From positions 558,001 through 622,000 of the forward strand of contig NZ_JAFKLZ010000001.1 in the NCBI RefSeq assembly GCF_017304615.1: DNA of 64,000 nt. The letters run 5' to 3'. Below, in pieces: positions 26,096 through 38,329 of this stretch (positions within the stretch are counted from its first letter, which is position 1; the number at the start of each line of letters is the position of its first letter). The notes under the pieces are model-generated. The model ran no database searches. It had not been told where the DNA came from and worked only from the letters and a program-made list of their open reading frames with translations. The position numbers were made by a program, and so were the translations under genes. The stretch comes from Sphingomonas sp. (GTDB lineage Bacteria; Pseudomonadota; Alphaproteobacteria; Sphingomonadales; Sphingomonadaceae).

Positions 26096-26262
26096 CGCGC
26101 ACCGCCGAAAAACCCCGAGTATTACGCATAGAGGCGACCGGCGGTCGCAGCGTCGTTCGGCCATAAGCGCCGGGCATGGAACCGATGCGATAGCGCGATT
26201 TTTCCACATCGCCGCGGTCGGCAATTCTCCGGGCATCGATATTCATGCCCAGGAGATGCCCA

Positions 26263-26772
26263 ATGCGCTCGATAACCGCCGCGGCTTGCGCCGCGCTCGC
26301 TTTCGCCACGCTTTCGATTCCTGCCGTTTCGCGCGCCGACCCAGCCCCGGCCGCAACCCCCGCCGCAGCCCCCTCGGCGGCGGGGGTCATTCGTCTGCGA
26401 AGCGCCAATGCGTTCGACGACACCGTCGCGCGGTTGAAGGCGGACGTGCAGGCAAAGGGCATCCGCTTCTTCGACGCGATCGACCAAAGTGCGCTGGGCG
26501 GGTCGGCCGACCTCAAGATCCGGCGTTCGACGCTCGTCCTGTTCGGGAATCCGCCCCTCGGCGTGCAATTCCTCCAATCCAATCCCTATGCCGGGCTAGA
26601 CTGGCCGGTGCGGATGCTGGTGCTCGAGGATATGGACGGCAACGTCTGGGTCGCCTGGACCGACTTCGCCTTCATCGCCCAGCGCTACGCGATCACCGAC
26701 AAGGCGCCGCAGCTCAAAATGGCGAGCGCGGTCGCGGCATCGATCGCGGCGGCGGCCACGACGCATCAATGA
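26263..26772 (+). CDS. Exported DUF302 protein
   Basis: A 169-residue protein with a signal peptide (MRSITAAACAALAFATLSIPAVSRA), an Ala/Pro-rich linker and a DUF302 domain (DDTVARLKADVQAKGIRFFDAIDQ, STLVLFGNPPLGVQFLQSNPYAGLDWPVRMLV). Such proteins often sit beside sulfur or metal handling genes, without a proven activity. AGGAG seven bases upstream selects ATG 26263 over ATG 26245. The stop overlaps the start of the YeeE-type transporter (ATGA). Confidence 0.85.
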   Translation: MRSITAAACAALAFATLSIPAVSRADPAPAATPAAAPSAAGVIRLRSANAFDDTVARLKADVQAKGIRFFDAIDQSALGGSADLKIRRSTLVLFGNPPLGVQFLQSNPYAGLDWPVRMLVLEDMDGNVWVAWTDFAFIAQRYAITDKAPQLKMASAVAASIAAAATTHQ

Positions 26773-27692
26773 CGCCCGCGTTGCTGATCCTCGCGCTCGC
26801 CAGCGCCGCGATGATGGGTCTCGCAATCCAGCGTGGCGCGACCTGCATGGTCGCCGCCGTCGACGCGGCCATCATCGAACGGTCATATGGTCGTGCGCTG
26901 GCGCTGGGCGAGGCAGCGCTATGGGTGGGCGGATTGCTCGCCGTTACGCAGCTGGCCGGTGTGTTGACGATGCCGCCCGCACTTTATCGGGCGACCGCGC
27001 TGACCGTAGCCGGCGGCGTGCTGCTCGGTTTCGGCGCGTGGATCAACCGAGCTTGCGTGTTCGGCGCGGTCGCGCGGATCGGGTCGGGGCAATGGGCGTG
27101 GCTTGCAACGCCAGTCGGGTTCTTTCTCGGCTGCCTTATCCCTATCGCGAAACCAGAAGCCACCGGACATCCTGCTCCATTTGCCAATGCCGCGTTGATC
27201 GCGGTGCCATTCGGCGCGCTGGCAGTCTGGCGGCTGGTCGAGGTGGTCCGCGCGCCCGGTGCGCTTGCGCATTTGTGGCATCCGCACCGCGCAACGTTGC
27301 TGATCGCCGTCACCTTCGTGACGACGATGCTGAGCGTGGGTCTGTGGGCTTATACCGATGCGCTCGCGGCGATCGCCAAGGCGATGGACGTGCGTATAGG
27401 GTTGCGCGGCGCGATGGTGGTCGCGTTGCTTGCTGGCTCGATCCTCGGTGGCTGGTTCGCGGGCAAGATCCGCTGGGTGCCACCGACGCTCGACGACGTG
27501 GTGCGCTGCCTGGTCGGGGGTGCGTTGATGGGCGCTGGCGGATTGCTGGTTCCTGGCACCAACGATGGGCTGATCATGGTCGGTTTGCCGCTGCTTCAGC
27601 CCCACGCCTGGATCGCCGTCACCACGATGACGCTGACCATCGCCGCGTTGATCCTGCTCGCGCGGCACGTTCGTCGGCCGGCCGTCGCTTGA
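26769..27692 (+). CDS. YeeE/YedE-family sulfur-compound transporter
   Basis: A 307-residue membrane protein with about nine hydrophobic helices. The paired family motifs are QRGATCMVAAV (C26) and INRACVFGAVARIGSG (C96). In the thiosulfate importer TsuA/YeeE, cysteines at such positions relay the sulfur compound through the membrane. A third motif may be VGGALMGAGGLLVPGTNDG, which lacks the usual cysteine. It is coupled to the exported DUF302 protein, suggesting a two-gene sulfur uptake unit. The substrate, thiosulfate or another sulfane compound, is inferred. Confidence 0.85.
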   Translation: MTPALLILALASAAMMGLAIQRGATCMVAAVDAAIIERSYGRALALGEAALWVGGLLAVTQLAGVLTMPPALYRATALTVAGGVLLGFGAWINRACVFGAVARIGSGQWAWLATPVGFFLGCLIPIAKPEATGHPAPFANAALIAVPFGALAVWRLVEVVRAPGALAHLWHPHRATLLIAVTFVTTMLSVGLWAYTDALAAIAKAMDVRIGLRGAMVVALLAGSILGGWFAGKIRWVPPTLDDVVRCLVGGALMGAGGLLVPGTNDGLIMVGLPLLQPHAWIAVTTMTLTIAALILLARHVRRPAVA

Positions 27693-27774: not shown

Positions 27775-28677
27775 ATGGAAATGCAGCAGGTCCGCTATTT
27801 CGTCTGCCTGGCGCAGACGCTCAACTTCACGCGTGCGGCCGAACAATGCAACGTCAGCCAGCCCGCGCTAACCCGGGCGATCCAGCAGCTCGAACACGAA
27901 CTGGGCGGGCCGCTCTTTCATCGCGAGCGCAATAACACGCACTTGTCCGAACTCGGGCGGATGATGCTGCCTTATCTCGACAGCGTCCACGCCTCGACGC
28001 TCGCCGCCAAGGACGCGGCGAAATCGGCTAGGAAGATCGAGAATGTCACGTTGACGCTGGGAGCGATGTGCACCATCGGGCCTCAGCTTATCGCCGACCT
28101 GATCGTCCGCTTCCAGGCCGAGCATCCCGATGTCGAGGTCAACGTGATCGACGGCGAAGCGAGGGCGATGATCGAGAAACTGGAAAAGGGCGATCTGCAC
28201 CTTAGCATCGTCGGCGTGCCGGATGAGTTGCCCGATACGCTCCACCAGGTGCCGGTGTTCACGGAGCGCTTCGTCATCGTGATTCCACGCTACCATCCCT
28301 GGGCGGAAAAGAACGCCATCCGTGTGGCCGAGCTTAACGGCGAACCGTATGTCGGGCGGACCAATTGCGAAGTGTTCCAGATGGTGACGCAGGACTTCGC
28401 GAGGCGCGGGGTCACGACCAAAAAGGTGTTCAGCTCGCCGCGCGACGAATGGGTGCAGAAGATGATCAAGGCCGGACTAGGCTTCGGCTTCTTCCCCGAA
28501 TATTGCGTGACCGATCCCGACCTCATCGTCCGCCCGCTGATCGAGCCCGAATATTCGCGGACGATATATCTCGCGACGGTGCGCGGGCGGCCGCATTCAC
28601 CGGCGATCGGGGCGTTCGTGCGCGAGGCGCGACGTCACTCCTGGCCGTCGTTCGAACCGCTTTCCTCGCAGGTCTGA
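27775..28677 (+). CDS. LysR-family transcriptional regulator
   Basis: A 300-residue LysR regulator. The N-terminal winged HTH (MQQVRYFVCLAQTLNFTRAAEQCNVSQPALTRAIQQLEHELGG) is standard, and the effector domain runs from about residue 90. The GTTA-N6-TAAC stretch at 27733-27746 may be its own binding site. It lies at the head of the cupin/hydroxybutyrate/bufferin cluster and is the only DNA-binding protein encoded there. The palindromes at 29757 and 33228 contain T-N11-A, the LysR-box pattern, so it is the best candidate regulator of both operons. Its 3' end overlaps the convergent AhpD-like gene by 43 bases. Confidence 0.9.
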   Translation: MEMQQVRYFVCLAQTLNFTRAAEQCNVSQPALTRAIQQLEHELGGPLFHRERNNTHLSELGRMMLPYLDSVHASTLAAKDAAKSARKIENVTLTLGAMCTIGPQLIADLIVRFQAEHPDVEVNVIDGEARAMIEKLEKGDLHLSIVGVPDELPDTLHQVPVFTERFVIVIPRYHPWAEKNAIRVAELNGEPYVGRTNCEVFQMVTQDFARRGVTTKKVFSSPRDEWVQKMIKAGLGFGFFPEYCVTDPDLIVRPLIEPEYSRTIYLATVRGRPHSPAIGAFVREARRHSWPSFEPLSSQV

Positions 28678-29048
28678 CAGTCGGTGATCTCCACGAGCAG
28701 GTCATGGCACCACACGAGCGCGTCGAGTGCGGCCGGGACGCCGGCATGTGCAGCGATCTGAGTCAGCAGTTCGATGATTTCCGACTTGCTCCAACCGAGG
28801 TGAAGTGCCGCGGTGACATGATCGCGTAGCTGCGCGGCAGAGCGGCCCATCGCGGCGCACGCGGCGATCGCGGCGAACTCGCGCAACCGGAGGTCGAGCC
28901 CGGGGCGGGAAAAAACATCACCATAGGCAAAGCCGATGGCAAGGCGGGCGAAATCGGGCGCGACTTCGGCGACCCGGTTGCGGCGGGCATCCAGTTCTGC
29001 CCCGGTCCGGGCCAGCACTTCGAGCCCGACGTGATACGAATCTGTCAC
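28635..29048 (-). CDS. Carboxymuconolactone decarboxylase/AhpD-like protein
   Basis: A 137-residue protein of the carboxymuconolactone decarboxylase fold (PGLDLRLREFAAIAACAAMGRSAAQLRDHVTAALHLGWSKSEIIELLTQIAAHAGVPAAL). The core matches gamma-CMD/AhpD-like members, but the AhpD CxxC pair is absent. A CDLLVEITDCQTCEES-type tail with two cysteines (in DCQTCEE) extends beyond the domain. GTG 29048 follows AGGA with seven-base spacing; the longer form from 29120 lacks a ribosome site. It is downstream of the cupin on the same strand. A role in peroxide or lactone chemistry is possible. Confidence 0.8.
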   Translation of the reverse strand: MTDSYHVGLEVLARTGAELDARRNRVAEVAPDFARLAIGFAYGDVFSRPGLDLRLREFAAIAACAAMGRSAAQLRDHVTAALHLGWSKSEIIELLTQIAAHAGVPAALDALVWCHDLLVEITDCQTCEESGSNDGQE

Positions 29049-29072
29049 AGTGGCGTCCTGAGATAGAAGGAT

Positions 29073-29141
29073 GGCGCGGCGCCCGCATCCTCTCAAGAAA
29101 GGCGCCGCGCCGGGCCGCACCGGATAAGGGAAATCCGGTGC
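29073..29141. repeat. Two strong stem-loops between cupin and AhpD-like genes
   Basis: GGCGCGGCGCC (29073-29083) pairs perfectly with GGCGCCGCGCC (29101-29111), and GCACCGGAT (29117-29125) with ATCCGGTGC (29133-29141). Both lie downstream of the minus-strand cupin and before the AhpD-like gene. Neither has a T run, so they look like processing or attenuation structures rather than a classic terminator. Confidence 0.5.
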
Positions 29142-29164
29142 GACCTATGCGAGCGGCGGAGGAA

Positions 29165-29608
29165 TCAGTCGCGCGCCTTCACGTCGGCCGACAGTAGGAC
29201 CGCCGGCACCTTTCCGGTGTTTTTCCACCAGTGCGAGATGCCGTCGGATTCGCTGGCGACGTCACCAGCGTTGTGAACGATCCCGACCGCGCATGTGTTG
29301 CGAAATTCGGTGATCGATCCTGATACGACGGTGATCAGCGCGGGACGGCCGGCGTGGCTGTGCAGCGGCACGACGCCGCCCGGCTGAACGACGAGGCGAC
29401 GCAGGCGCAGGTCGCGATTGTCGACGTCGATCTCTTTCTTGAGATCGACCGAGCCAATGACGTCGTCAGTGACCTTGACCGGCGCGGTAGGCGCACCAGC
29501 GAGCGGGTTGGCGATGGTCTTGCCGGCAGGGCACGTGCCGGCGAAGGCAGGGGTGCCCGCGAGCATGGCGGCGGTCGCGGCGAATACCGCAGTCCAACGA
29601 ATGTTCAT
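29165..29608 (-). CDS. Secreted cupin-domain protein
   Basis: A 147-residue protein with a clear signal peptide (MNIRWTAVFAATAAMLAGTPAFAG) and a single cupin domain. VQPGGVVPLHSHAGRPALITVVSGSITEF supplies the first cupin motif with two histidines, and GDVASESDGISHWWKN the second. It is probably periplasmic and metal-binding. AAGGA eight bases before ATG 29608 fixes the start. It is divergent from the hydroxybutyrate dehydrogenase operon, so the region 29609-29841 probably controls both. Confidence 0.85.
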   Translation of the reverse strand: MNIRWTAVFAATAAMLAGTPAFAGTCPAGKTIANPLAGAPTAPVKVTDDVIGSVDLKKEIDVDNRDLRLRRLVVQPGGVVPLHSHAGRPALITVVSGSITEFRNTCAVGIVHNAGDVASESDGISHWWKNTGKVPAVLLSADVKARD

Positions 29609-29638
29609 GATGTCAGTCCTTTGCATTGAGTGAAATCG

Positions 29639-29711
29639 CGTCACGGGCGGCAGCACTGCCGGGACCGGGTTAGGGCTGGGGAATGCCCGGAACGGGCCAC
29701 CGCCCGTGACG
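29639..29711. repeat. Perfect 12-bp inverted repeat with 49-base spacer
   Basis: CGTCACGGGCGG (29639-29650) is repeated in inverted form as CCGCCCGTGACG (29700-29711) inside the divergent promoter region of the cupin and hydroxybutyrate dehydrogenase genes. It could loop the DNA between two regulator dimers or fold as a long stem in the cupin leader RNA. Confidence 0.45.
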
Positions 29712-29756
29712 ATGTTGAGATATGGGAGACTGCAGGGCGGGGACATTCGATTGACC

Positions 29757-29771
29757 GCATGGTTTCCATGC
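29757..29771. promoter_or_regulatory. Palindrome GCATGG-TTT-CCATGC upstream of hydroxybutyrate dehydrogenase operon
   Basis: GCATGGTTTCCATGC is a perfect 6-bp inverted repeat around TTT, about 70 bases before the dehydrogenase ATG. The reverse complement of 33228-33242, upstream of the bufferin operon, differs at one base (GCATGGTTTCGATGC). With the flanking A it contains T-N11-A as in LysR boxes, and a LysR gene heads the cluster. Confidence 0.55.
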
Positions 29772-29841
29772 ACGACCGGCATTTCAGTCATCGCGCGCGC
29801 ATCGGCATCCTGGGAACAGTCAAATTCCAAGGAGACCCACG

Positions 29842-30663
29842 ATGACCGTTCAGCCGATGGCCGAACTCAAACAGGCCGGACCTCTTACCGGCCGTGTCGC
29901 GATCATCACCGGATCGACCAGCGGCATCGGCCTCGGTATCGCCCATGCGCTTGCCGAAGCCGGCGCGGACATCGTGATCAACGGCCTCGGCGATGCTGTA
30001 GCGATCGAAGCGAAGCGCACCGAGCTCGCCGAAACGCATCGCGTCCGTGTCGCCTATAACGGCGCGAACCTGATGGACCCGGCCGGAGCAGTCGCGATGG
30101 TCGAGGCTGTGATTGCGGCGTTCGGTCGGATCGACATCCTGGTCAACAATGCGGGGATCCAATTCGTCAGCCCGATCGAGGATTTTCCGGCGGAGAAATG
30201 GGAGGCGATCATCGCGCTCAACCTGTCGGCGGCGTTCCACGCGATCCGAACGGCGTTCGCGCCGATGAAGGCCGCAGGTTGGGGCAGGATCATCAACATT
30301 GCCTCGGCGCACGGCCTCGTCGCCTCGCCGTTCAAGAGCGCCTATGTCGCCGCCAAGCACGGCATCGTCGGCCTGACCAAGACGGTCGCCTTGGAAGGTG
30401 CGAAGTTCGGCGTCACCTGCAACGCGATCTGTCCCGGCTATGTATGGACGCCGTTGGTCGAGGGGCAGATCGAGGACACCGCCAAGGCCCGCGGCATCAG
30501 CCGCGAGGACGTGATCGAGAACGTCCTGCTCGCCGCACAGCCGAGCAAGCAGTTCGCGACGGTCGAGGAACTTGGCGCGCTTGCGGTTTTCCTCTGTTCC
30601 AAGGGCGGTCGGTCGATCACCGGAACCGCGTTGCCGGTCGACGGCGGGTGGGTGGCGCAATGA
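29842..30663 (+). CDS. bdhA: 3-hydroxybutyrate dehydrogenase (SDR family)
   Basis: A 273-residue short-chain dehydrogenase predicted to interconvert (R)-3-hydroxybutyrate and acetoacetate with NAD. GSTSGIGLGIA is the cofactor loop and NNAG follows. The catalytic Ser-Tyr-Lys appear in NIASAHGLVASPFKSAYVAAKHG, and CPGYVWTPLVEGQI is typical of bacterial hydroxybutyrate dehydrogenases. CAAGGAGA precedes the ATG. It is the first gene of a coupled operon continuing with a 54-residue protein, NDH-2 and a patatin-like hydrolase, consistent with polyhydroxybutyrate or ketone-body oxidation feeding the respiratory chain. Confidence 0.88.
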   Translation: MTVQPMAELKQAGPLTGRVAIITGSTSGIGLGIAHALAEAGADIVINGLGDAVAIEAKRTELAETHRVRVAYNGANLMDPAGAVAMVEAVIAAFGRIDILVNNAGIQFVSPIEDFPAEKWEAIIALNLSAAFHAIRTAFAPMKAAGWGRIINIASAHGLVASPFKSAYVAAKHGIVGLTKTVALEGAKFGVTCNAICPGYVWTPLVEGQIEDTAKARGISREDVIENVLLAAQPSKQFATVEELGALAVFLCSKGGRSITGTALPVDGGWVAQ

Positions 30664-30824
30664 GCGCGCATTTGCCCCGTGCGCGTGAGAAGGAGTGCGC
30701 GCTGCGCCCGGACCTCGCCGCTTATTATGCCTTACGTCGCGTCCACCCAGATCGGCTCGACCGCGTCGACGCGCCGACGCTCGGCGTGCTCGCCGAACTC
30801 GCGCGCCACGGGAGGCCGTGGTGA
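30660..30824 (+). CDS. Small uncharacterised protein (54 residues)
   Basis: A 54-codon frame starting in an ATGA overlap with the dehydrogenase stop and ending in a GTGA overlap with the NDH-2 start, so both junctions fit translational coupling. The protein is charged and soluble (LPRAREKECALRPDLAAYYALRRVHPD, ending in GRPW), with no signal peptide or membrane segment. I do not recognise a family. The exact packing between two real genes is the main evidence that it is translated. Confidence 0.5.
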   Translation: MSAHLPRAREKECALRPDLAAYYALRRVHPDRLDRVDAPTLGVLAELARHGRPW

Positions 30825-32086
30825 ACCGCCAGAGCGTCGTGATTGTCGGTGCGGGGTTCGGCGGGCTCTCCGCCGCACGCGCCCTGGCGCGCGCAAACGT
30901 CGATGTGACGTTGATCGACCGCCGCAACCATCACCTGTTCCAGCCTTTGCTCTACCAGGTCGCGACTGCGGGCCTGTCGCCCGCCGACATCGCCGCGCCG
31001 ATCCGCTCGATCCTGCGCGGGCAGAAGAATGTCCGCGTCGTGCTCGACACCGTAATCGGCATCGATCGCGAGGGGCGTCGCGTGATCCTCGATGAGGGGC
31101 GTCCAATTGCTTACGACCAGTTGGTCCTCGCGACAGGCGCACGCCACAGCTATTTCGGGCGGGACGATTGGGCGCGACATGCGCCCGGCATAAAGACGAT
31201 CGACGACGCGACCGCGGTGCGCCGCAAGGTGCTGCTCGCGCTGGAGCGGGCCGAGAGTGAAACCGATCCCGACCGGCGCCAGGCGCTGCTCACCTTTGCG
31301 GTGATCGGAGGTGGCCCGACCGGAGTCGAGATGGCGGGGGCCATCGCGGAACTCGCCCGCCGCTCGGTGTCGCGCGATTTCCGCAGCATCACCCCGCATT
31401 GCTCGCGAGTATTGCTGATCGAAGCGGGCCCGCGATTGCTCGGCGCATTCCCGGAAAGGCTGGCCGGCAAGGCCCGCGTTGCAATCGAGGAAATCGGCGT
31501 CACGGTGCTCGCGGGCAAGCCGGTCTCTACGATCACCGACCATTACCTGGATGTCGGCGGCATCCGCATCCATACCGATACGGTTATCTGGGCGGCGGGC
31601 GTGCAGGCATCGCCAGCCGCCGCGTGGCTCGATGCGCTCGCCGACCGCGCTGGGCGATTGGTGGTCAGACCCGACCTTACGGTGCCCGGCTACCCGGAGA
31701 TCTTCGCGATCGGCGACACCGCCTCGTTCAAAAAGCCGGACGGTCATCATCTGCCCGGCGTCGCCCCGGTCGCCAAACAGCAGGGCAAGCATGTTGCGCG
31801 CATGATCGCGAGCGGTCGCCGCATGCCATTCCGCTATCGCGACTTTGGCAGCCTGGCGACGATCGGGCGGCATAGAGCGGTGATCCATTATGGTCACCTG
31901 AAGTTGTCGGGGACGCTTGCCTGGCTGCTGTGGTGCACCGCGCACATCTTCTTCCTCGCGGGCTATCGCAACCGGTTGATCGTCGGCGCGAACTGGCTGT
32001 GGAACTACCTGACCTTCGAACGCGGCGCGCGCCTGATCACCGGCGACGCAAACCCAACCAATGGAGATAAGACATGGGCCGCTTGA
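30821..32086 (+). CDS. ndh: Type II NADH:quinone oxidoreductase (NDH-2)
   Basis: A 421-residue FAD-dependent oxidoreductase. VVIVGAGFGGLSAARAL binds FAD, VIGGGPTGVEMAGAIAELA binds NADH, and FAIGDTASF closes the FAD site. The C-terminal amphipathic region (LAWLLWCTAHIFFLAGYRNRLIVGANWLWNYL) is the NDH-2 membrane anchor. It oxidises NADH to reduce quinone without proton pumping, on the inner face of the membrane. GTG 30821 follows GGGAGG by five bases. In this operon it could recycle NADH made by hydroxybutyrate oxidation. Confidence 0.88.
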   Translation: MNRQSVVIVGAGFGGLSAARALARANVDVTLIDRRNHHLFQPLLYQVATAGLSPADIAAPIRSILRGQKNVRVVLDTVIGIDREGRRVILDEGRPIAYDQLVLATGARHSYFGRDDWARHAPGIKTIDDATAVRRKVLLALERAESETDPDRRQALLTFAVIGGGPTGVEMAGAIAELARRSVSRDFRSITPHCSRVLLIEAGPRLLGAFPERLAGKARVAIEEIGVTVLAGKPVSTITDHYLDVGGIRIHTDTVIWAAGVQASPAAAWLDALADRAGRLVVRPDLTVPGYPEIFAIGDTASFKKPDGHHLPGVAPVAKQQGKHVARMIASGRRMPFRYRDFGSLATIGRHRAVIHYGHLKLSGTLAWLLWCTAHIFFLAGYRNRLIVGANWLWNYLTFERGARLITGDANPTNGDKTWAA

Positions 32087-33219
32087 GCCTTCACGACGAG
32101 TTGCGCGCACACGGCCAGCAAGTGCTGGTGCTGCAGGGCGGCGGCGCCCTGGGCGCCTATCAGGTCGGTGTCTATCAGGCATTGCATGAGGCCGGGGTCG
32201 AACCCGATTGGGTGATCGGCACGTCGATCGGTGCGATCAACGCCGGGATCATCGCGGGCAGCAAGCCAGGCGAGCGGCTCGAACGGCTGACGGAATTCTG
32301 GAAGCGCGTCGAGCACGGCCATTTCTTCGAAGACGTCATGCCGACCCAGATCGCCAGCGTCTGGCGCAACATGGCGACGATCATGGGCGGCCTGCCGGCG
32401 TTCTTCACGCCCAACCTGCCCGCGTTCGGCAGCCCGCACGCGACGCTCGGCGCCGAGGGCGCGGGGTACTATTCGGTCGACCCGATGCGCGAGACGCTTA
32501 GCGACCTGATCGATTTCGATCAGGTCAATGACGGCGCGGTCCGTCTGACAGTCGGCGCGTCGCGCGTGACGTCGAGCGAAATGGTTTATTTCGATTCGCG
32601 CGACATGCCGCTCGACCTGCGCCACGTCATGGCGTCGGGTGCGCTGCCGCCCGCTTTCCCGGCGGTGCGGATCGACGGCGAACTTTATTGGGATGGCGGC
32701 ATCCTGTCGAACACGCCGGTCGAGGTGGTGTTCGACGACAATCCACGCCGCGATTCGATGGTCTATGCCGTCCATATCTGGAACCCGCACGGTGCCGAAC
32801 CCGAGACGATCTGGGAGGTGATGAACCGCCAGAAGGACGTCCAATATTCGAGCCGCGCCGGCAGCCACATCAAGCGCCAGCGCCAGCTCCACCGCCTGCG
32901 TCACGTCATCACCGAATTGTCTGCGATGATCCCGTCCGACCAGCGCCAGACGCCCGAGGTCTCCGAGCTTGCAGCGTATGGCTGCCCGACGCGGATGCAC
33001 GTCATCCGCCTGCTGGCCCCCGCGCTCGATTGCGAGGATCACAGCAAGGATATCGATTTCAGCCCGTCGGGTATCCGCGCGCGTTGGGACGCGGGCTACG
33101 CCGACACGATGCGTACGCTGGAGACCGCACCGTGGCGCGATCCGGTCGATCCGCTCGAAGGATTCGTCCTGCACGAGGCGATGGGCGGCGAGATGGTGCG
33201 CACGTCCGCCGCGGGCTGA
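32074..33219 (+). CDS. Patatin-like phospholipase family protein (with C-terminal DUF3734-like region)
   Basis: A 381-residue patatin-domain hydrolase. GGGALGAYQVGVYQAL forms the oxyanion loop, S51 in GTSIG is the nucleophile, and D207 in WDGGILSNTP completes the Ser-Asp dyad. The last 110 residues (QYSSRAGSHIKRQRQLHRLRHVI, MHVIRLL) resemble the DUF3734 tail of proteins encoded beside hydroxybutyrate dehydrogenases in other alphaproteobacteria. No signal peptide is seen. A role in lipid or intracellular polyhydroxybutyrate turnover fits the operon but is unproven. Its start overlaps the NDH-2 end by 13 bases. Confidence 0.85.
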   Translation: MGRLSLHDELRAHGQQVLVLQGGGALGAYQVGVYQALHEAGVEPDWVIGTSIGAINAGIIAGSKPGERLERLTEFWKRVEHGHFFEDVMPTQIASVWRNMATIMGGLPAFFTPNLPAFGSPHATLGAEGAGYYSVDPMRETLSDLIDFDQVNDGAVRLTVGASRVTSSEMVYFDSRDMPLDLRHVMASGALPPAFPAVRIDGELYWDGGILSNTPVEVVFDDNPRRDSMVYAVHIWNPHGAEPETIWEVMNRQKDVQYSSRAGSHIKRQRQLHRLRHVITELSAMIPSDQRQTPEVSELAAYGCPTRMHVIRLLAPALDCEDHSKDIDFSPSGIRARWDAGYADTMRTLETAPWRDPVDPLEGFVLHEAMGGEMVRTSAAG

Positions 33220-33227
33220 CGCTCCAT

Positions 33228-33242
33228 GCATCGAAACCATGC
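33228..33242. promoter_or_regulatory. Palindrome GCATCGAAACCATGC upstream of the bufferin operon
   Basis: TGCAT-CGAAACC-ATGCA occupies 33227-33243, about 85 bases before the bufferin precursor ATG and just after the patatin gene. It matches the 29757-29771 palindrome at 14 of 15 positions in the opposite orientation. This gives the bufferin operon a likely promoter of its own under the same regulator. Confidence 0.55.
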
Positions 33243-33326
33243 ATTCCCGGTAGCGGACGCGACCGATCATTTTGGTGAGAGTCCCGTCGCACCCCCGGTG
33301 CCTCGAATCTCTTGAAAGGAAGCAAC

Positions 33327-33602
33327 ATGAAGACCGTCAATCTCGCCCTCACTGCCACCGTGCTGACCGCGCTCGGCTCGGCCGCCGCCCAAGCTGGGCC
33401 GGTCGCTGCGCAGCCCAACAAGGACAAGTGCTACGGTATCAGCCTGGCGGGCAAGAACGACTGCAAGGCGGGCGCGGGCACCAGCTGCGCGGGCACCAGC
33501 CGCATCAACTATCAGCGCGATGCCTGGAAGTATGTCGCCAAGGGCACCTGCGCGAAGATCAAGACGCCCAAGGGCTACGGCTCGCTGACCCCCAAGGCGT
33601 AA
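33327..33602 (+). CDS. bufA1: BufA1-like bufferin precursor (DUF2282)
   Basis: A 91-residue DUF2282 protein: signal peptide (about residues 1-23, ending AAAQA) and a mature part with four conserved cysteines, C35 (DKCYGI), C46 (KNDCKAG), C54 (TSCAGTS) and C75 (KGTCAKI). Members of this family are bufferins, ribosomally made and post-translationally modified peptides that sequester copper in the periplasm; their cysteines are converted by a DUF692 enzyme. AAAGGA precedes ATG 33327. The DUF692, DUF2063 and DoxX genes follow immediately, giving the complete operon order known from Caulobacter. Confidence 0.88.
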
Positions 33603-33606
33603 GCCC

Positions 33607-34440
33607 ATGACCCGTCCGACCGCTGGCGTGGCGTTCAAGCCCCAACATTTCGATGAGGCAATCGCCGCGTCGGCGGCCGGATTGTGGTTCGAGGTGCATG
33701 CCGAGAATTATATGGTCGCAGGCGGACCGCGCCTCGCGATGCTCCACGCCTTGCGCGAAGCGCGGCCGCTATCGCTCCACGGAGTCGGCCTATCGATCGG
33801 CGGCGCAGACCGCCCTGATCCCGCGCACCTCAAGGCGCTTGCGGACCTGGTCGACCGGTTCGACCCGTTCCTCGTGTCCGAACATCTCGCCTGGTCGCGG
33901 GTCGGGTCGCGTTGCCTGCCCGATCTGTTACCGGTGCCGCGGACGGGCGAGGCACTCGCAATAGTCACGCGCAACATCGACATCGTCCACGAAACGCTCG
34001 GTCGCCGCATCCTGATCGAAAACCCAGCGCACTATGCCGCGTTCGACGCGATGTGGAGCGAACCCGATTTCCTTGGTGAGATTGTCCGTCGCACCGGTTG
34101 CGGGTTGCTGATCGACGTGAACAACGTTGCGGTCGCGGCCAACAACCTTGGCTACGACCCGGGCCGCTATCTCGCTCAACTGCCGCACGACGCGATCGGC
34201 GAAATCCATGTGGCCGGGCACAGCGATGACCCGATGCTCGGCGCACACCTGCTGATCGACAGCCACGACGCGCCCGTGTCCGAAACGGTGTGGGGGCTGC
34301 TCGCCGAACTGCTCGACCACACGGGCGAGCGTCCCGTGCTGCTCGAACGCGACGGCAACGTCCCGGACTTCGCCGACCTTATGGCCGAGCGCGACCGCGC
34401 CGCTGCGATCCTCGCTCGAAAGGAACTATGCCATGCCTGA
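33607..34440 (+). CDS. bufB: DUF692 multinuclear iron oxidase (MNIO), bufferin-maturing enzyme
   Basis: A 277-residue TIM-barrel DUF692 protein. Metal-ligand candidates are visible in EVHAENYM, LHGVGLSIGG, SEHLAW, LIENPAHY, LIDVNNVAV and EIHVAGHS, the His/Asp/Glu pattern of enzymes that modify peptide cysteines using several non-heme irons. Its substrate is predicted to be the upstream precursor. It starts four bases after the precursor stop and overlaps the DUF2063 partner by eight bases. It acts in the cytoplasm before export of the peptide. Confidence 0.9.
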   Translation: MTRPTAGVAFKPQHFDEAIAASAAGLWFEVHAENYMVAGGPRLAMLHALREARPLSLHGVGLSIGGADRPDPAHLKALADLVDRFDPFLVSEHLAWSRVGSRCLPDLLPVPRTGEALAIVTRNIDIVHETLGRRILIENPAHYAAFDAMWSEPDFLGEIVRRTGCGLLIDVNNVAVAANNLGYDPGRYLAQLPHDAIGEIHVAGHSDDPMLGAHLLIDSHDAPVSETVWGLLAELLDHTGERPVLLERDGNVPDFADLMAERDRAAAILARKELCHA

Positions 34441-35167
34441 TCTTGCCACCTATCAGCGCCAGTTCGTCGAGACGATCGACGGCAAGCGGCATGGCGACCC
34501 GATCCTCGGCGTCTATCGCAACACGTCGGTCAAGGGCGCGATCGACGCGCTCGCCGACAATTACCAGACCGTTTTGATGGTCGTGGGCGAAAGCACGTTC
34601 GTCGCGCTGGCGATCGACTTCGTCGCCGACTGTCCGCCCGACAGCCCGGTGCTTGCCGCTTATGGAGCGGGGTTCGCCGACTGGCTCGAAATGCAGGGGA
34701 TCGGCCGGACGCTGCCCTATTTGTCGGGTATCGCGCAAATCGACCGGCTGCGTGTCGAATCGCACCTGGCCGCCGATGGCGACGTGCTCGACCCACTACA
34801 GCTTACCTCGGTATCGGCCGAGCAATGGTCGGCGAGCGCCGCGGTCCTTCATCCCGCCACGCGTTTCGGCTGGTTTGCCGTGCCCGCGCCGTCGATCTGG
34901 CTCGCCCACCTTGACCCGCATGCCGCCGAAATCGCGCCCGAATGGCGTGCAGAGGGTATGCTCCTCACGCGTCGCGAGGGCGCGGTGATCGGCCAGCGGA
35001 TCGGCGCGGCGGAGCACCGCATCCTGTTCGGCCTGCGCATCGGTGAGACGATCAGCCAGGCCGCGACCGCGGCCGCCGGCCTCTACCCACACGCCGACAT
35101 TACCGGCGCGTTTCGCGACATCCTCGCCTCCTGCGCGCTTTCCAGCCTCAAGACCAAGGGATTCTGA
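34433..35167 (+). CDS. bufC: DUF2063 partner protein of the bufferin system
   Basis: A 244-residue DUF2063 protein. The N-terminal DNA-binding-like/partner domain reads [41 protein letters not shown]. In related systems it delivers the precursor peptide to the DUF692 enzyme. The overlap with the DUF692 gene indicates equal production of the two partners. No signal peptide is seen, consistent with a cytoplasmic complex. Confidence 0.87.
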
Positions 35168-35169
35168 CC

Positions 35170-35643
35170 ATGCTCGACACCACCGCCGCTTTGCCCGTCG
35201 CCGAACCCGGACGGAGCTCGATCCTCGACCGCTTCGCCGGACTCGCGGATAGGGCCTTGCCGATGTCCCTGCTGCTGCTGATCCAGCGCTTCGCCGTCGC
35301 TGCGATCTTCTTCCTGTCGGGTCGCACCAAGGTGACCGGTTGGTTCACGATCACCGACGACGCGTTCGAACTGTTCCGCAGCGAATACGCGCTCCCGCTC
35401 GTGCCGCCGACGATCGCGACCTATGCCGCGACCTTTTCCGAGCATTTCTTCCCGATCCTGCTCGTGCTCGGACTGTTCAGCCGTTTCGCCGCGCTGGCCC
35501 TCCTCGGCATGACGCTGGTCATCGAGATCTTCGTTTATCCGGATGCCTGGCCGACTCACCTTAGCTGGGCCGGGCTGATGCTCCCGATCATCGCGATGGG
35601 TGGCGGGCGTTTCTCGCTCGATCGCCTCCTAAAGATCAAGTGA
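35170..35643 (+). CDS. bufD: DoxX-family membrane protein of the bufferin operon
   Basis: A 157-residue DoxX-like integral membrane protein with four predicted helices, including [57 protein letters not shown] and [18 protein letters not shown]. DoxX proteins close the bufferin operons of Caulobacter and others, and their exact role is open. It starts two bases after the DUF2063 stop and ends the operon. Confidence 0.87.
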
Positions 35644-35924: not shown

Positions 35925-36575
35925 GTGCAAGCAAAGGTCGTGATCGTCGAGGATGATCCGCGGATCGCCGCGCACGTCGCCCATGGGGTGACAGAGCATG
36001 GCGGCCTGTCGTTGCTTGGGACGGCGGGTTCGTTGGCGGAAGCGCGCGCGCTTTTGGGCCAGGACGCTGACTTGTTCATTCTCGATCTTGGGCTGCCCGA
36101 TGGCAACGGCATCGATCTGATCGCGGAAATTCGCACTAAACGAGGCGCAGGTCCGAAAATCCTGGTGCTGTCAGTTCTCGGCGATCAGACGACGGTGCTG
36201 GCGGCGGTGTTGGCGGGGGCCGACGGCTATCTGTTGAAAGACCTCGACAGCCTCGACATTGGCCAACAGGCCGCCGCAGCGCTGTCCGGCGGGGCGCCGC
36301 TTTCCCCGAGTATTGCAGCCTATGTGCTGCGTTATCTGCGCGGCCAGCAGGAGCAGCAAAAGCAGCAAGATGAGGACTCCGAACTGTCGCCGCGAGAGTA
36401 TGAATTGCTCCAATTGCTTGCTCGCGGGCAGAGCAACCGTCAGGCGGCCGAGGCGCTGTCGCTGTCTCCGCACACGGTCGGCGATCATGTGAAGTCGATC
36501 TACCGCAAGCTCGGGGTCAGCAGCCGGGGCGAGGCGATGGTCCGCGCCTTCCGGAGCGGATTGCTGCGCCCGTGA
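35925..36575 (+). CDS. NarL/LuxR-type response regulator
   Basis: A 216-residue two-component response regulator. The receiver domain has acidic residues ED-D at 9-11, phospho-acceptor D54 in FILDLGLPDG and a conserved lysine in GYLLKDLD. A glutamine-rich linker (GQQEQQKQQDED) joins it to a LuxR/NarL HTH (LSPREYELLQLLARGQSNRQAAEALSLSPHTVGDHVKSIYRKLGV). GTG 35925 begins the receiver fold; GTG 35913 is possible. It overlaps the histidine kinase start by four bases (GTGA). Palindromes at 35724 and 38336 are its probable targets. Confidence 0.88.
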   Translation: MQAKVVIVEDDPRIAAHVAHGVTEHGGLSLLGTAGSLAEARALLGQDADLFILDLGLPDGNGIDLIAEIRTKRGAGPKILVLSVLGDQTTVLAAVLAGADGYLLKDLDSLDIGQQAAAALSGGAPLSPSIAAYVLRYLRGQQEQQKQQDEDSELSPREYELLQLLARGQSNRQAAEALSLSPHTVGDHVKSIYRKLGVSSRGEAMVRAFRSGLLRP

Positions 36576-38329
36576 CGGTGACGATCCGGCGGTGGGGATG
36601 GCGCCGCGCAATCGTGACCGTGCTGGGCGCGCAAGTGCTGTTCTGGACCTTCTATGCGCTGATCGTGCTGGCCTTTCATCCGGCGGTCGCCTGGGGCGAA
36701 TACCGTTTGCCGGTGGGTCGTGCCGGACCGGCGTCGACGAGCGTTCCGACCGCGGCGTGGATCCCTGGTCTTTCAGAGCCGGCGGTGCTGCATGTTCCCG
36801 GTTGGCAGCCGGCGATCGTGACTCCGGCGCGGATGACGCTCCTGTCCCCATCCGAAAAGACCGAGGGGGGAGGGGCGTGGTCGCTCACTTGCCTGAACCG
36901 ATCCTGCGCGACGCCAGACGCGATTTATGTCGGCCCACATGACCGGATCGGCATGGCGGCGGGCTGGGAGCGGTTCCAGCGTTTCGACATGGTCTGGGTG
37001 GCCATCGCCGTCGAAGGGCTGCTTGGCCTGGCGCTGCTCGTGCTGCTGCCTCTCAGCCGTTTCTCGCGGCTTCAGACCATCACCGGCCTGTTCATGATCT
37101 TGGTGAGCGCGGACGCCTGGTTCACCGCGTTCGGCGCGGATGCGCTGCCTTATGCCTGGTTCCCGCTGCTGCGCTTCGGCGTGGAATATTTGATGCTGGC
37201 GATGGTGGCGCTTACCGTGAACGCCTTTGCGGGCTGGCAGCCCGGGGCGGCTCGCATCACCCTTGCCTGTTTTGGTATTGCCCTAACCGTCCTGATTGCC
37301 GCCATGCTCGTTTTGGGCGACGTTGCAGGTGTCGTCCCCTGGCTCGACGCCGCTGCGCTCGTCCTGGTGTCGGCCTATGGGATCGCGGCGCTGATCAGGA
37401 TGAGCCGCACCGCGCCCGGTCCGGCGATCCGAGTGATGGCGATCCTGCTGGTCGGCATTACGTCGACCGCCTGGGACCTCCTCATCCATCCGGCGCCAAC
37501 CGGCCCGATGTTGCAGGCGTCGGTACTGACGCCGACCTTGACGACGTTCCTCATCCTGTTCGAACTCGCGCTTCAGGGCCGCCAGCTCAGCCGGGAAGCC
37601 GACGAAGCGCGCACCGATCTCGAGCGGCAGGTCCTCGAACAGGACGCCAGCCTGCTGCGCTCATCCAACCTGCTGCGCCACCAGGAACGGCGGATCGCGA
37701 TCGACGCCGAGCGACAGCGCTTGTTGCGGGACATGCACGACGGCGTGGGTGGCATCCTGACTCACTTGCTGCTCGACACGCGCGAGGGGCGCCTGAACCA
37801 TGCGGAAATCGGGGAGTCGCTGCAATCGGCGGTCGATGATCTCCGAAACATGGCCAGCGCGATCGACGCCGCCGACGAGCCGATCGACGAGGCCCTGGCG
37901 ATGTTCCGCGAGCGCATGTGGGTCCGGTTGGCCCGATCCGGCATCGACTTCGAGTGGCGCTGCGAGCTTGCTTCTCCAGCGGCGCGTCTCGATGCCGCTC
38001 GGCTGCTCAGTCTTTACCGGCTGTTGCAGGAGGGGATTGCCAACACGGTGCGCCACGGCCGCGCGACGCGAATCGATCTGTGGGCAGAGCCAGCAGACAA
38101 TGATCGACTCCGCGTGACGCTCTCCGACAACGGCATGGGTTTCGATCCCGCCGCTGCCAGGGGTTCGCCGGGGGAGGGGCGCGGCCTCGCCAACATGCAT
38201 CGCCGCGCCGTGCAGATGGGTGGCGAACTGCGCATCGAAAGCGCGCCGGGGCAAGGGGCCCGGCTGATCGTCCTCGTCCCGATTGAAGACATCTCGAAGC
38301 GAAAATCTGGAAAATTTACCAATGATTAA
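36572..38329 (+). CDS. Sensor histidine kinase (HisKA_3/NarX-like) with large membrane domain
   Basis: A 585-residue sensor. A first membrane helix (AIVTVLGAQVLFWTFYALIVLAF) precedes a periplasmic segment of about 100 residues with a CLNRSCATP motif holding two cysteines. About seven further helices follow (residues 140-340). A coiled coil (EADEARTDLERQVLEQDASLL) leads to the phospho-acceptor H389 in RDMHDGVGG, and the ATPase domain has DNGMGFDPAAAR and GEGRGLANMHRRA. This is the NarX/DegS type that partners with NarL regulators; its partner is the adjacent gene. The stimulus is unknown. Confidence 0.88.
   Translation: MTVTIRRWGWRRAIVTVLGAQVLFWTFYALIVLAFHPAVAWGEYRLPVGRAGPASTSVPTAAWIPGLSEPAVLHVPGWQPAIVTPARMTLLSPSEKTEGGGAWSLTCLNRSCATPDAIYVGPHDRIGMAAGWERFQRFDMVWVAIAVEGLLGLALLVLLPLSRFSRLQTITGLFMILVSADAWFTAFGADALPYAWFPLLRFGVEYLMLAMVALTVNAFAGWQPGAARITLACFGIALTVLIAAMLVLGDVAGVVPWLDAAALVLVSAYGIAALIRMSRTAPGPAIRVMAILLVGITSTAWDLLIHPAPTGPMLQASVLTPTLTTFLILFELALQGRQLSREADEARTDLERQVLEQDASLLRSSNLLRHQERRIAIDAERQRLLRDMHDGVGGILTHLLLDTREGRLNHAEIGESLQSAVDDLRNMASAIDAADEPIDEALAMFRERMWVRLARSGIDFEWRCELASPAARLDAARLLSLYRLLQEGIANTVRHGRATRIDLWAEPADNDRLRVTLSDNGMGFDPAAARGSPGEGRGLANMHRRAVQMGGELRIESAPGQGARLIVLVPIEDISKRKSGKFTND

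Follow-up and report, generated by a model that had tools for sequence, protein, structure and literature searches.

A candidate LysR-type operator common to bufferin and 3-hydroxybutyrate dehydrogenase operons in a Sphingomonas genome

The consensus operator of OxyR is composed of four half-sites separated by N7 gaps. In Legionella, the bdhA-patD operon associates a 3-hydroxybutyrate dehydrogenase with a patatin. The latter association is also found in the 64-kb stretch of Sphingomonas sp. DNA analysed here (NZ_JAFKLZ010000001.1, positions 558,001 to 622,000; hereafter the window), where a gene for a LysR-type transcriptional regulator (LTTR; hereafter LysR) lies close to genes for 3-hydroxybutyrate dehydrogenase (bdh), an NDH-2-like oxidoreductase and a patatin, followed by the bufABCD operon. 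Bufferins, which bind copper, form a young peptide family. Passages of the Caulobacter study describe bufferin operons (CC3254-CC3257) with GTAACC-N16-CGAA promoters, together with sigF and its negative regulator (PMC3511200). In excerpts of the bufferin landscape paper, sigma factors and NrsF are mentioned and the words LysR and regulator are not used (PMC12452194). Other described systems concern oxidants. According to parts of one source, HypT is a LysR-type reactive-chlorine regulator that senses by methionine oxidation, and the Rcl system (RclR) ties oxidant defence to copper via RclA (PMC7464077); the AhpD-like RclX is mentioned as context only (PMC7950407). A Pseudomonas aeruginosa DUF692 iModulon is reported, in sections of its source, to be up with hypochlorite and, among other supplements, with copper (PMC9023270). 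Cupin, SDR and LysR proteins were linked to chlorite dismutase, at the level of families, in an extract of a further study (PMC9751292). No description of a regulon joining this LysR, bufferins and bdh was found in the literature searched, which covered few subscription papers.

Judging from sequence comparison, the LysR encoded at 27775-28677 probably controls three promoter regions through an operator of ~40 bp made of four half-sites. The original prediction had proposed a LysR-controlled regulon coupling the bufferin and bdh operons through a palindrome. One LTTR-like operator common to both operons is indeed supported by conservation, flank geometry and co-variation with the recognition helix, but the set appears larger than proposed, since DUF302/YeeE and cupin genes belong to it too. 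The operators would serve the DUF302-YeeE unit, bufABCD, and the cupin and bdh-NDH2-patatin units, which diverge from each other. LysR would bind them as a tetramer and activate the corresponding promoters.

A four-half-site element at three promoter regions

The palindrome was first noticed as GCATGGTTTCCATGC at 29757-29771 and, on the minus strand, as GCATGGTTTCGATGC at 33228-33242, and both are exact matches at these places. A third copy of the 15-mer, GCATGGAACCGATGC, is located at 26174-26188. The palindrome is the inner pair of four half-sites in an element of ~40 bp with the consensus ATnG-N7-GCAT-N7-ATGC-N7-GCAT-TTC, whose half-sites are 11 bp apart and symmetric about position 8. Read on the + strand, operator 1 is ATAA-N7-GCAT-N7-ATGC-N7-CGAT-TTT (26163..26202), upstream of DUF302/YeeE. 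Operator 2 is TTCG-N7-GCAT-N7-ATGC-N7-GCAT-TTC (29746..29785); its core, originally placed before the bdh operon, does lie upstream of bdh but sits in the gap between the divergent cupin (-) and bdh (+) genes. Operator 3 is TGAC-N7-GCAT-N7-ATGC-N7-GTAG (33217..33256), upstream of bufA. Boxes of the T-N11-A type expected of LTTR operators flank the core on both sides at DUF302 (26164/26176 and 26186/26198) and at bdh (29747/29759 and 29769/29781), and on the right-hand side only at bufA (33240/33252). Such boxes had been predicted, but in the wrong register (T4/A16), the conserved ones being T(-9)/A3 and T13/A25. The symmetric palindrome itself was considered as the LTTR box and was replaced, after site profiling, by these two flanking boxes.

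The core is short. In the 3.34-Mb genome the motif GCATSG-N3-CSATGC has 13 exact sites, and 165 sites when up to one mismatch is allowed, which leaves some room for the palindrome being a dispersed repeat or a chance match. However, 3 of the 13 exact sites fall within 7.07 kb of the window (Poisson P about 3e-6), nine of the other ten have no flanking T-N11-A box and the remaining one (C8:262293) has a single box, and the element occupies the same positions in other genera. A repeat or chance origin was rejected on site clustering and flanking boxes and its probability is negligible. The other ten sites all lie inside long open frames with coding-like third-position GC, a test that decides little because two of the three window operators were flagged as well. 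Given the clustering of exact sites and the flanking boxes, the operator set looks local in this genome, comprising DUF302-YeeE, cupin / bdh-NDH2-patatin and bufABCD.

A search with the patatin yielded 80 named loci, the best of 193; labels of the type L032 denote loci. Site profiles were drawn from 19 sphingomonad bdh, 15 bufA and 13 DUF302 sites, the bdh and DUF302 sets including those of the window. Conservation of the core in these profiles is by construction, because rows were chosen at no more than two core mismatches. Outside the core, T(-9), A19, G23, A25, T26, T27 and T28 are each present in 19/19 rows of the bdh profile. The palindrome is found upstream of bdh/cupin and bufA, and partly of DUF302, in relatives from Sphingomonas, Sphingopyxis and Croceibacterium. 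It recurs before bdh, bufA or DUF302 in Altererythrobacter and in an Erythrobacter metagenome-assembled genome (MAG). The predicted conservation in orthologous loci is thus observed in the loci that carry the lysR gene. Farther away, a homologous element, e.g. ATAG-N7-GTAT-N7-GAAG-N7-GCATTTC, occupies the divergent lysR-bdhA gap of Bradyrhizobium and Alsobacter, and another precedes bdh in Microvirga, where lysR is not adjacent. Near two LysR relatives of 55-56% identity, the element reads ATAG-N7-CTAT-N7-ATAG-N7-GCAT or GTAT. In many bdh promoters, a GGCATCCT-like element was recognised by eye 18-19 bp past GCATTTC, which would put the right-hand half-site at -35; this half-site (GCATTTC) may be an activation site near -35.

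Similar elements were met beside other genes. In one locus with a LysR relative of 56% identity nearby, an OxyR-like ATAG/CTAT four-half-site element separates a DUF7482 gene from msrB-msrA (L157:11835-14221). A Methyloceanibacter MAG carries a four-half-site element upstream of a DoxX-like match (L080:5511-6066).

The LysR protein and its pairing with the site

LysR displays the LTTR layout, with an N-terminal HTH_1 and a C-terminal LysR_substrate domain (PF00126, 1.1e-20; PF03466, 2e-41; + strand). It is rare: only 10 of 397 family genomes, the window genome included, have a match at E<=1e-100. Among 31 sphingomonad patatin loci, 23 have a LysR in the stretch and 8 do not. An exact GCAT-N7-ATGC precedes at least one of bdh, cupin, DUF302 and bufA in 20 of the 23. 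Seven of the eight loci without LysR were testable, and the exact core was found in one (L032) and in none of the other six, two of which (L050 and L161) represent the same contig. A LysR of clade A or B is missing from the genomes of L046, L050 and L059 (that of L046 encodes a LysR of 29-30% identity). L163 shows a degenerate four-half-site element, and a separate contig of its genome encodes a clade-B LysR next to DUF302 and YeeE. Croceibacterium salegens has two LysR paralogues in tandem (74% and 82%; L033:3869-5725).

The recognition helix provides a second link. The window LysR has an alanine at residue 31, inside the predicted helix 29-43. The tally of this residue used 58 of 61 bdh promoter rows (L055 and L066 were excluded for low scores and L093 for want of a LysR call), two of which, L052 and L054, took an element other than the operator (L052:4271, L054:7713). 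Ser31 pairs with T at half-site position 2 in 32/33 promoters and Ala31 with C in 20/25. Ser and Ala at this position are each represented in the two clades of the LysR tree, so that a single ancestral change does not account for the match between residue and letter, although the rows are not independent.

These data bear on the possibility that the operator is bound by some other, unlinked transcription factor, LysR being no more than a neighbour with targets of its own. Altererythrobacter segetis (L032) keeps the bufA site and has no LysR match in its genome at E<=1e-30, the same core accompanies two LysR clades only about 33% identical, and the window encodes a NarL-type regulator a short way downstream. 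However, the NDH-2 remnant that lies upstream of patatin in L032 adjoins what looks by eye like a transposase gene, so that the lysR side of the locus seems to have been lost. NarL-type matches were found in two other loci only, both at 28%, and the downstream regulator is unlikely to be the operator-binding factor. Moreover, the half-site letters track LysR residue 31 in both clades. The operator lying between lysR and a divergent target is not the layout of the window, but it is found in Bradyrhizobium and Alsobacter, with bdhA as the target, and in three sphingomonads (L038, L039 and L043; Sphingomonas ID1715, alba and hankyongi), where the site separates lysR from bufABCD. An unlinked factor is thus improbable, and binding and activation by LysR itself are what we infer at the operator.

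Bufferin promoters in sphingomonads

Promoters of bufA were scanned over 350 bp upstream for the core at no more than one mismatch and for a loosened form of the published GTAACC-N16-CGAA pattern, hereafter the sigma-F box. DUF2282 is present in 46 of 149 family genomes, in which 69 bufA genes were located. The core precedes one of them, that of the window, and a sigma-F box 49 of them, the window bufA not included. The 68 bufA genes of the 45 other genomes, none of which has a LysR match at E<=1e-60, thus have the core in no case and the sigma-F box in 49. NrsF has no match in the entire window genome, the Caulobacter control being positive, and no sigma-F box was found in the 350 bp upstream of the window bufA with the loosened pattern. 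The absence of an anti-sigma factor, first noted for the cluster, therefore extends to the genome, and sigma-F control of the window bufA was rejected on the missing NrsF and the missing promoter box.

A second set of 19 genomes was picked from the loci; one further locus with LysR and bufA (L036), which has an exact core but lacks a sigma-F box at its bufA, was left out, and one of the 27 bufA loci (L227) gave no BufA match. NrsF is present in 12 of 18 chosen relatives. The 14 bufA genes at LysR/patatin loci, a set that includes the window and A. segetis copies, show the strict core at no more than one mismatch in 13 cases and a sigma-F box in one. L225, the bufA of L041, has two mismatches to the strict core and an exact GCAT-N7-ATGC. 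Six genomes harbour both kinds of bufA: the copy at the LysR locus has the core in 6/6 and the sigma-F box in 0/6, and the other copy the core in 0/6 and the sigma-F box in 6/6. The two kinds thus differ in their promoters within one and the same genome. In Sphingopyxis solisilvae, the two kinds stand as tandem bufferin operons, the LysR-type bufA coming first and the sigma-F-type one second (L040:11241-14264).

LysR control would have replaced the sigma-F/NrsF control typical of bufferin operons in sphingomonad relatives, or in two genomes would stand beside it. In these two, L041 (Sphingomonas MAG nzgw538) and L042 (S. daechungensis), bufABCD is divergent from genes for an extracytoplasmic function (ECF) sigma factor and NrsF, followed by lysR; the LysR site precedes bufA in both and a sigma-F box was detected by the loosened pattern in L041 only. 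They are plausible intermediates between the two modes of control.

Alternatively, LysR could regulate bdh and cupin only, the bufA copy of the site being a relic of the rearrangement by which bufABCD came to lie behind patatin, with bufA itself read through or constitutive. The proximity of bufA to patatin and the lack of the left box and of the GCATTTC element in its operator would fit such a relic. Yet all 14 LysR/patatin-linked bufA copies have the exact GCAT-N7-ATGC across different gene arrangements, and most bufA sites retain the flank GGTAGCGGA. Besides, the bufA/patatin gap of a Rhodoblastus MAG (L096) holds two four-half-site elements, of which one faces bufA and the other patatin, so that its bufA has an element of its own; a LysR of 49% identity is encoded beyond patatin. 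We regard the relic as very unlikely and retain LysR control of bufABCD. Other wirings exist: L052 and L054 have bufABCD behind cupin in the same orientation and the site in the cupin/bdh gap, and these bufA genes have neither a site nor a sigma-F box of their own. Apart from LysR loci, two sphingomonad genomes have sigma-F-type bufA loci followed by an NDH-2-like match (L134:2232, 59%; L173:3813, 54%), which independently hints at an association of NDH-2 with bufferin.

Candidate signal, gene content and known systems

OxyR is the best solved match of LysR by sequence (2.2e-28) and by Foldseek E-value. The Foldseek TM-scores, at about 0.6 for OxyR as for CysB and others, do not separate OxyR from CysB, and with the NCBIfam OxyR model LysR scores 115.4 bits, below the cut-off of 329. 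C99 and C198 are invariant in 17/17 rows of the window LysR clade and in 4/4 Phenylobacterium rows, and C198 is kept in 31/31 Bradyrhizobium-type rows as well. C99 aligns beside a Thr common to OxyR; C198 is placed, with uncertain gap placement, two residues before the position of OxyR C199, and C208 has no equivalent. An AhpC/TSA relative is encoded in 45 of the 80 loci (43 by clustering), directly after patatin in 7, including L047:2248-2943, and elsewhere in 38. From the relationship to OxyR and the conserved cysteines, our guess is that the signal is an oxidant, a thiol-reactive species or copper, sensed through the OxyR-like effector domain. The AhpC/TSA neighbours, the hypochlorite iModulon and the chlorite dismutase links loosely suggest the order oxidant, chlorine, thiol, copper. 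A broader and tentative proposal is that an OxyR-like thiol-based LysR sensor, responding to oxidants such as reactive chlorine or to copper-driven oxidation, took over bufferin operons from sigma-F/NrsF on more than one occasion; copper-chelating peptides would have joined an oxidant response mobilising stored 3-hydroxybutyrate for NDH-2, both controls being kept in two Sphingomonas genomes. If true, a one-component LysR takeover with apparent intermediates among living species would illustrate how a metal-buffer operon changes its input signal.

Several observations weigh against control by LysR as proposed here. The presence link between LysR and site is imperfect: L047, L051 and L056 have LysR without an exact core (in L056, degenerate four-half-site elements precede bdh and DUF302), the genome of L063 has a clade-B LysR relative of 51% identity and no exact core before cupin, and A. 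segetis is the converse case. Related genomes are not independent samples, so the Fisher values of the comparisons overstate certainty. Five of the 25 Ala31 promoters do not have the C. The bufA operator has no left T-N11-A box and its last half-site is mostly GTAG and not GCAT, the DUF302 site is absent or degenerate in several loci, and bufA behind cupin in two clade-B genomes (L212, L237) has neither its own site nor a sigma-F box. Clade B (seven rows) lost C99 and C198 yet keeps the operator site, and the OxyR C199/C208 pair is not found in LysR in the phmmer alignment with OxyR. Signal and direction of control are guesses.

The genes were identified from profile matches of the window proteins, which bear out the names first given to LysR, hydroxybutyrate dehydrogenase, NDH-2, patatin, DUF2282, DUF692, DUF2063 and DoxX; coordinates are positions in the window. 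On the + strand, an exported-looking DUF302 protein (26245..26772; PF03625; signal peptide judged by eye), whose cluster is present in 33/80 patatin loci, is followed by a YeeE/YedE-type sulfur transport membrane protein (26769..27692; PF04143) and LysR. On the - strand are a carboxymuconolactone decarboxylase / AhpD-like protein (28635..29120; PF02627) and the cupin protein divergent from bdh (29165..29605; PF07883). The + strand then encodes 3-hydroxybutyrate dehydrogenase (29842..30663; TIGR01963, 368 bits versus a cut-off of 307), the NDH-2-like FAD/NAD oxidoreductase (30818..32086; Pyr_redox_2 and NDH2_C; GTG start at 30818 or 30821) and the patatin-like phospholipase with DUF3734 (32074..33219; PF01734, PF12536). 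Between bdh and NDH-2, the gap is filled by a small 54-codon open frame (30660-30824) whose ATG overlaps the bdh stop. The bufferin operon, also on the + strand, begins with bufA (33327..33602; PF10048), a Buf1-type precursor having DUF2282, a signal peptide (judged by eye only) and four Cys counted in the translation; its start is most likely the ATG at 33327, the mechanical open reading frame beginning at TTG 33312. The MNIO enzyme BufB (DUF692; 33607..34440; PF05114), the DUF2063 partner BufC (34433..35167; PF09836) and the DoxX protein BufD (35170..35643; PF07681) complete a Buf1 cluster. A NarL/LuxR-type response regulator and a sensor kinase start less than 300 bp past bufD (35925-38329), so LysR, originally taken as the sole DNA-binding protein in the cluster, is not the only one nearby.

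The proposed operator gives a direct route to asking what the family of LysR proteins encoded next to bdhA and patatin senses across Alphaproteobacteria. Compared with OxyR, the closest solved match, it shares the geometry of four half-sites with N7 gaps; however, its half-site letters in sphingomonads are GCAT/ATGC, and LysR is 27% identical and lacks the C199/C208 pair. For HypT and RclR, no bufferin link is reported in the parts of the source concerned (PMC7464077). The Pseudomonas Pep3 cluster likewise has a LysR gene in a DUF692/DUF2063 peptide cluster, but its precursor differs (COG3767) and the relevant sections make no regulatory claim for its LysR (PMC8719888). Lastly, the bufferin operon comprises the same families in the same order as in Caulobacter, i.e. 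DUF2282, DUF692, DUF2063 and DoxX, whereas, in contrast to what the passages on Caulobacter describe, the window genome has no NrsF match and no sigma-F box, and carries a LysR-type operator instead (PMC3511200).

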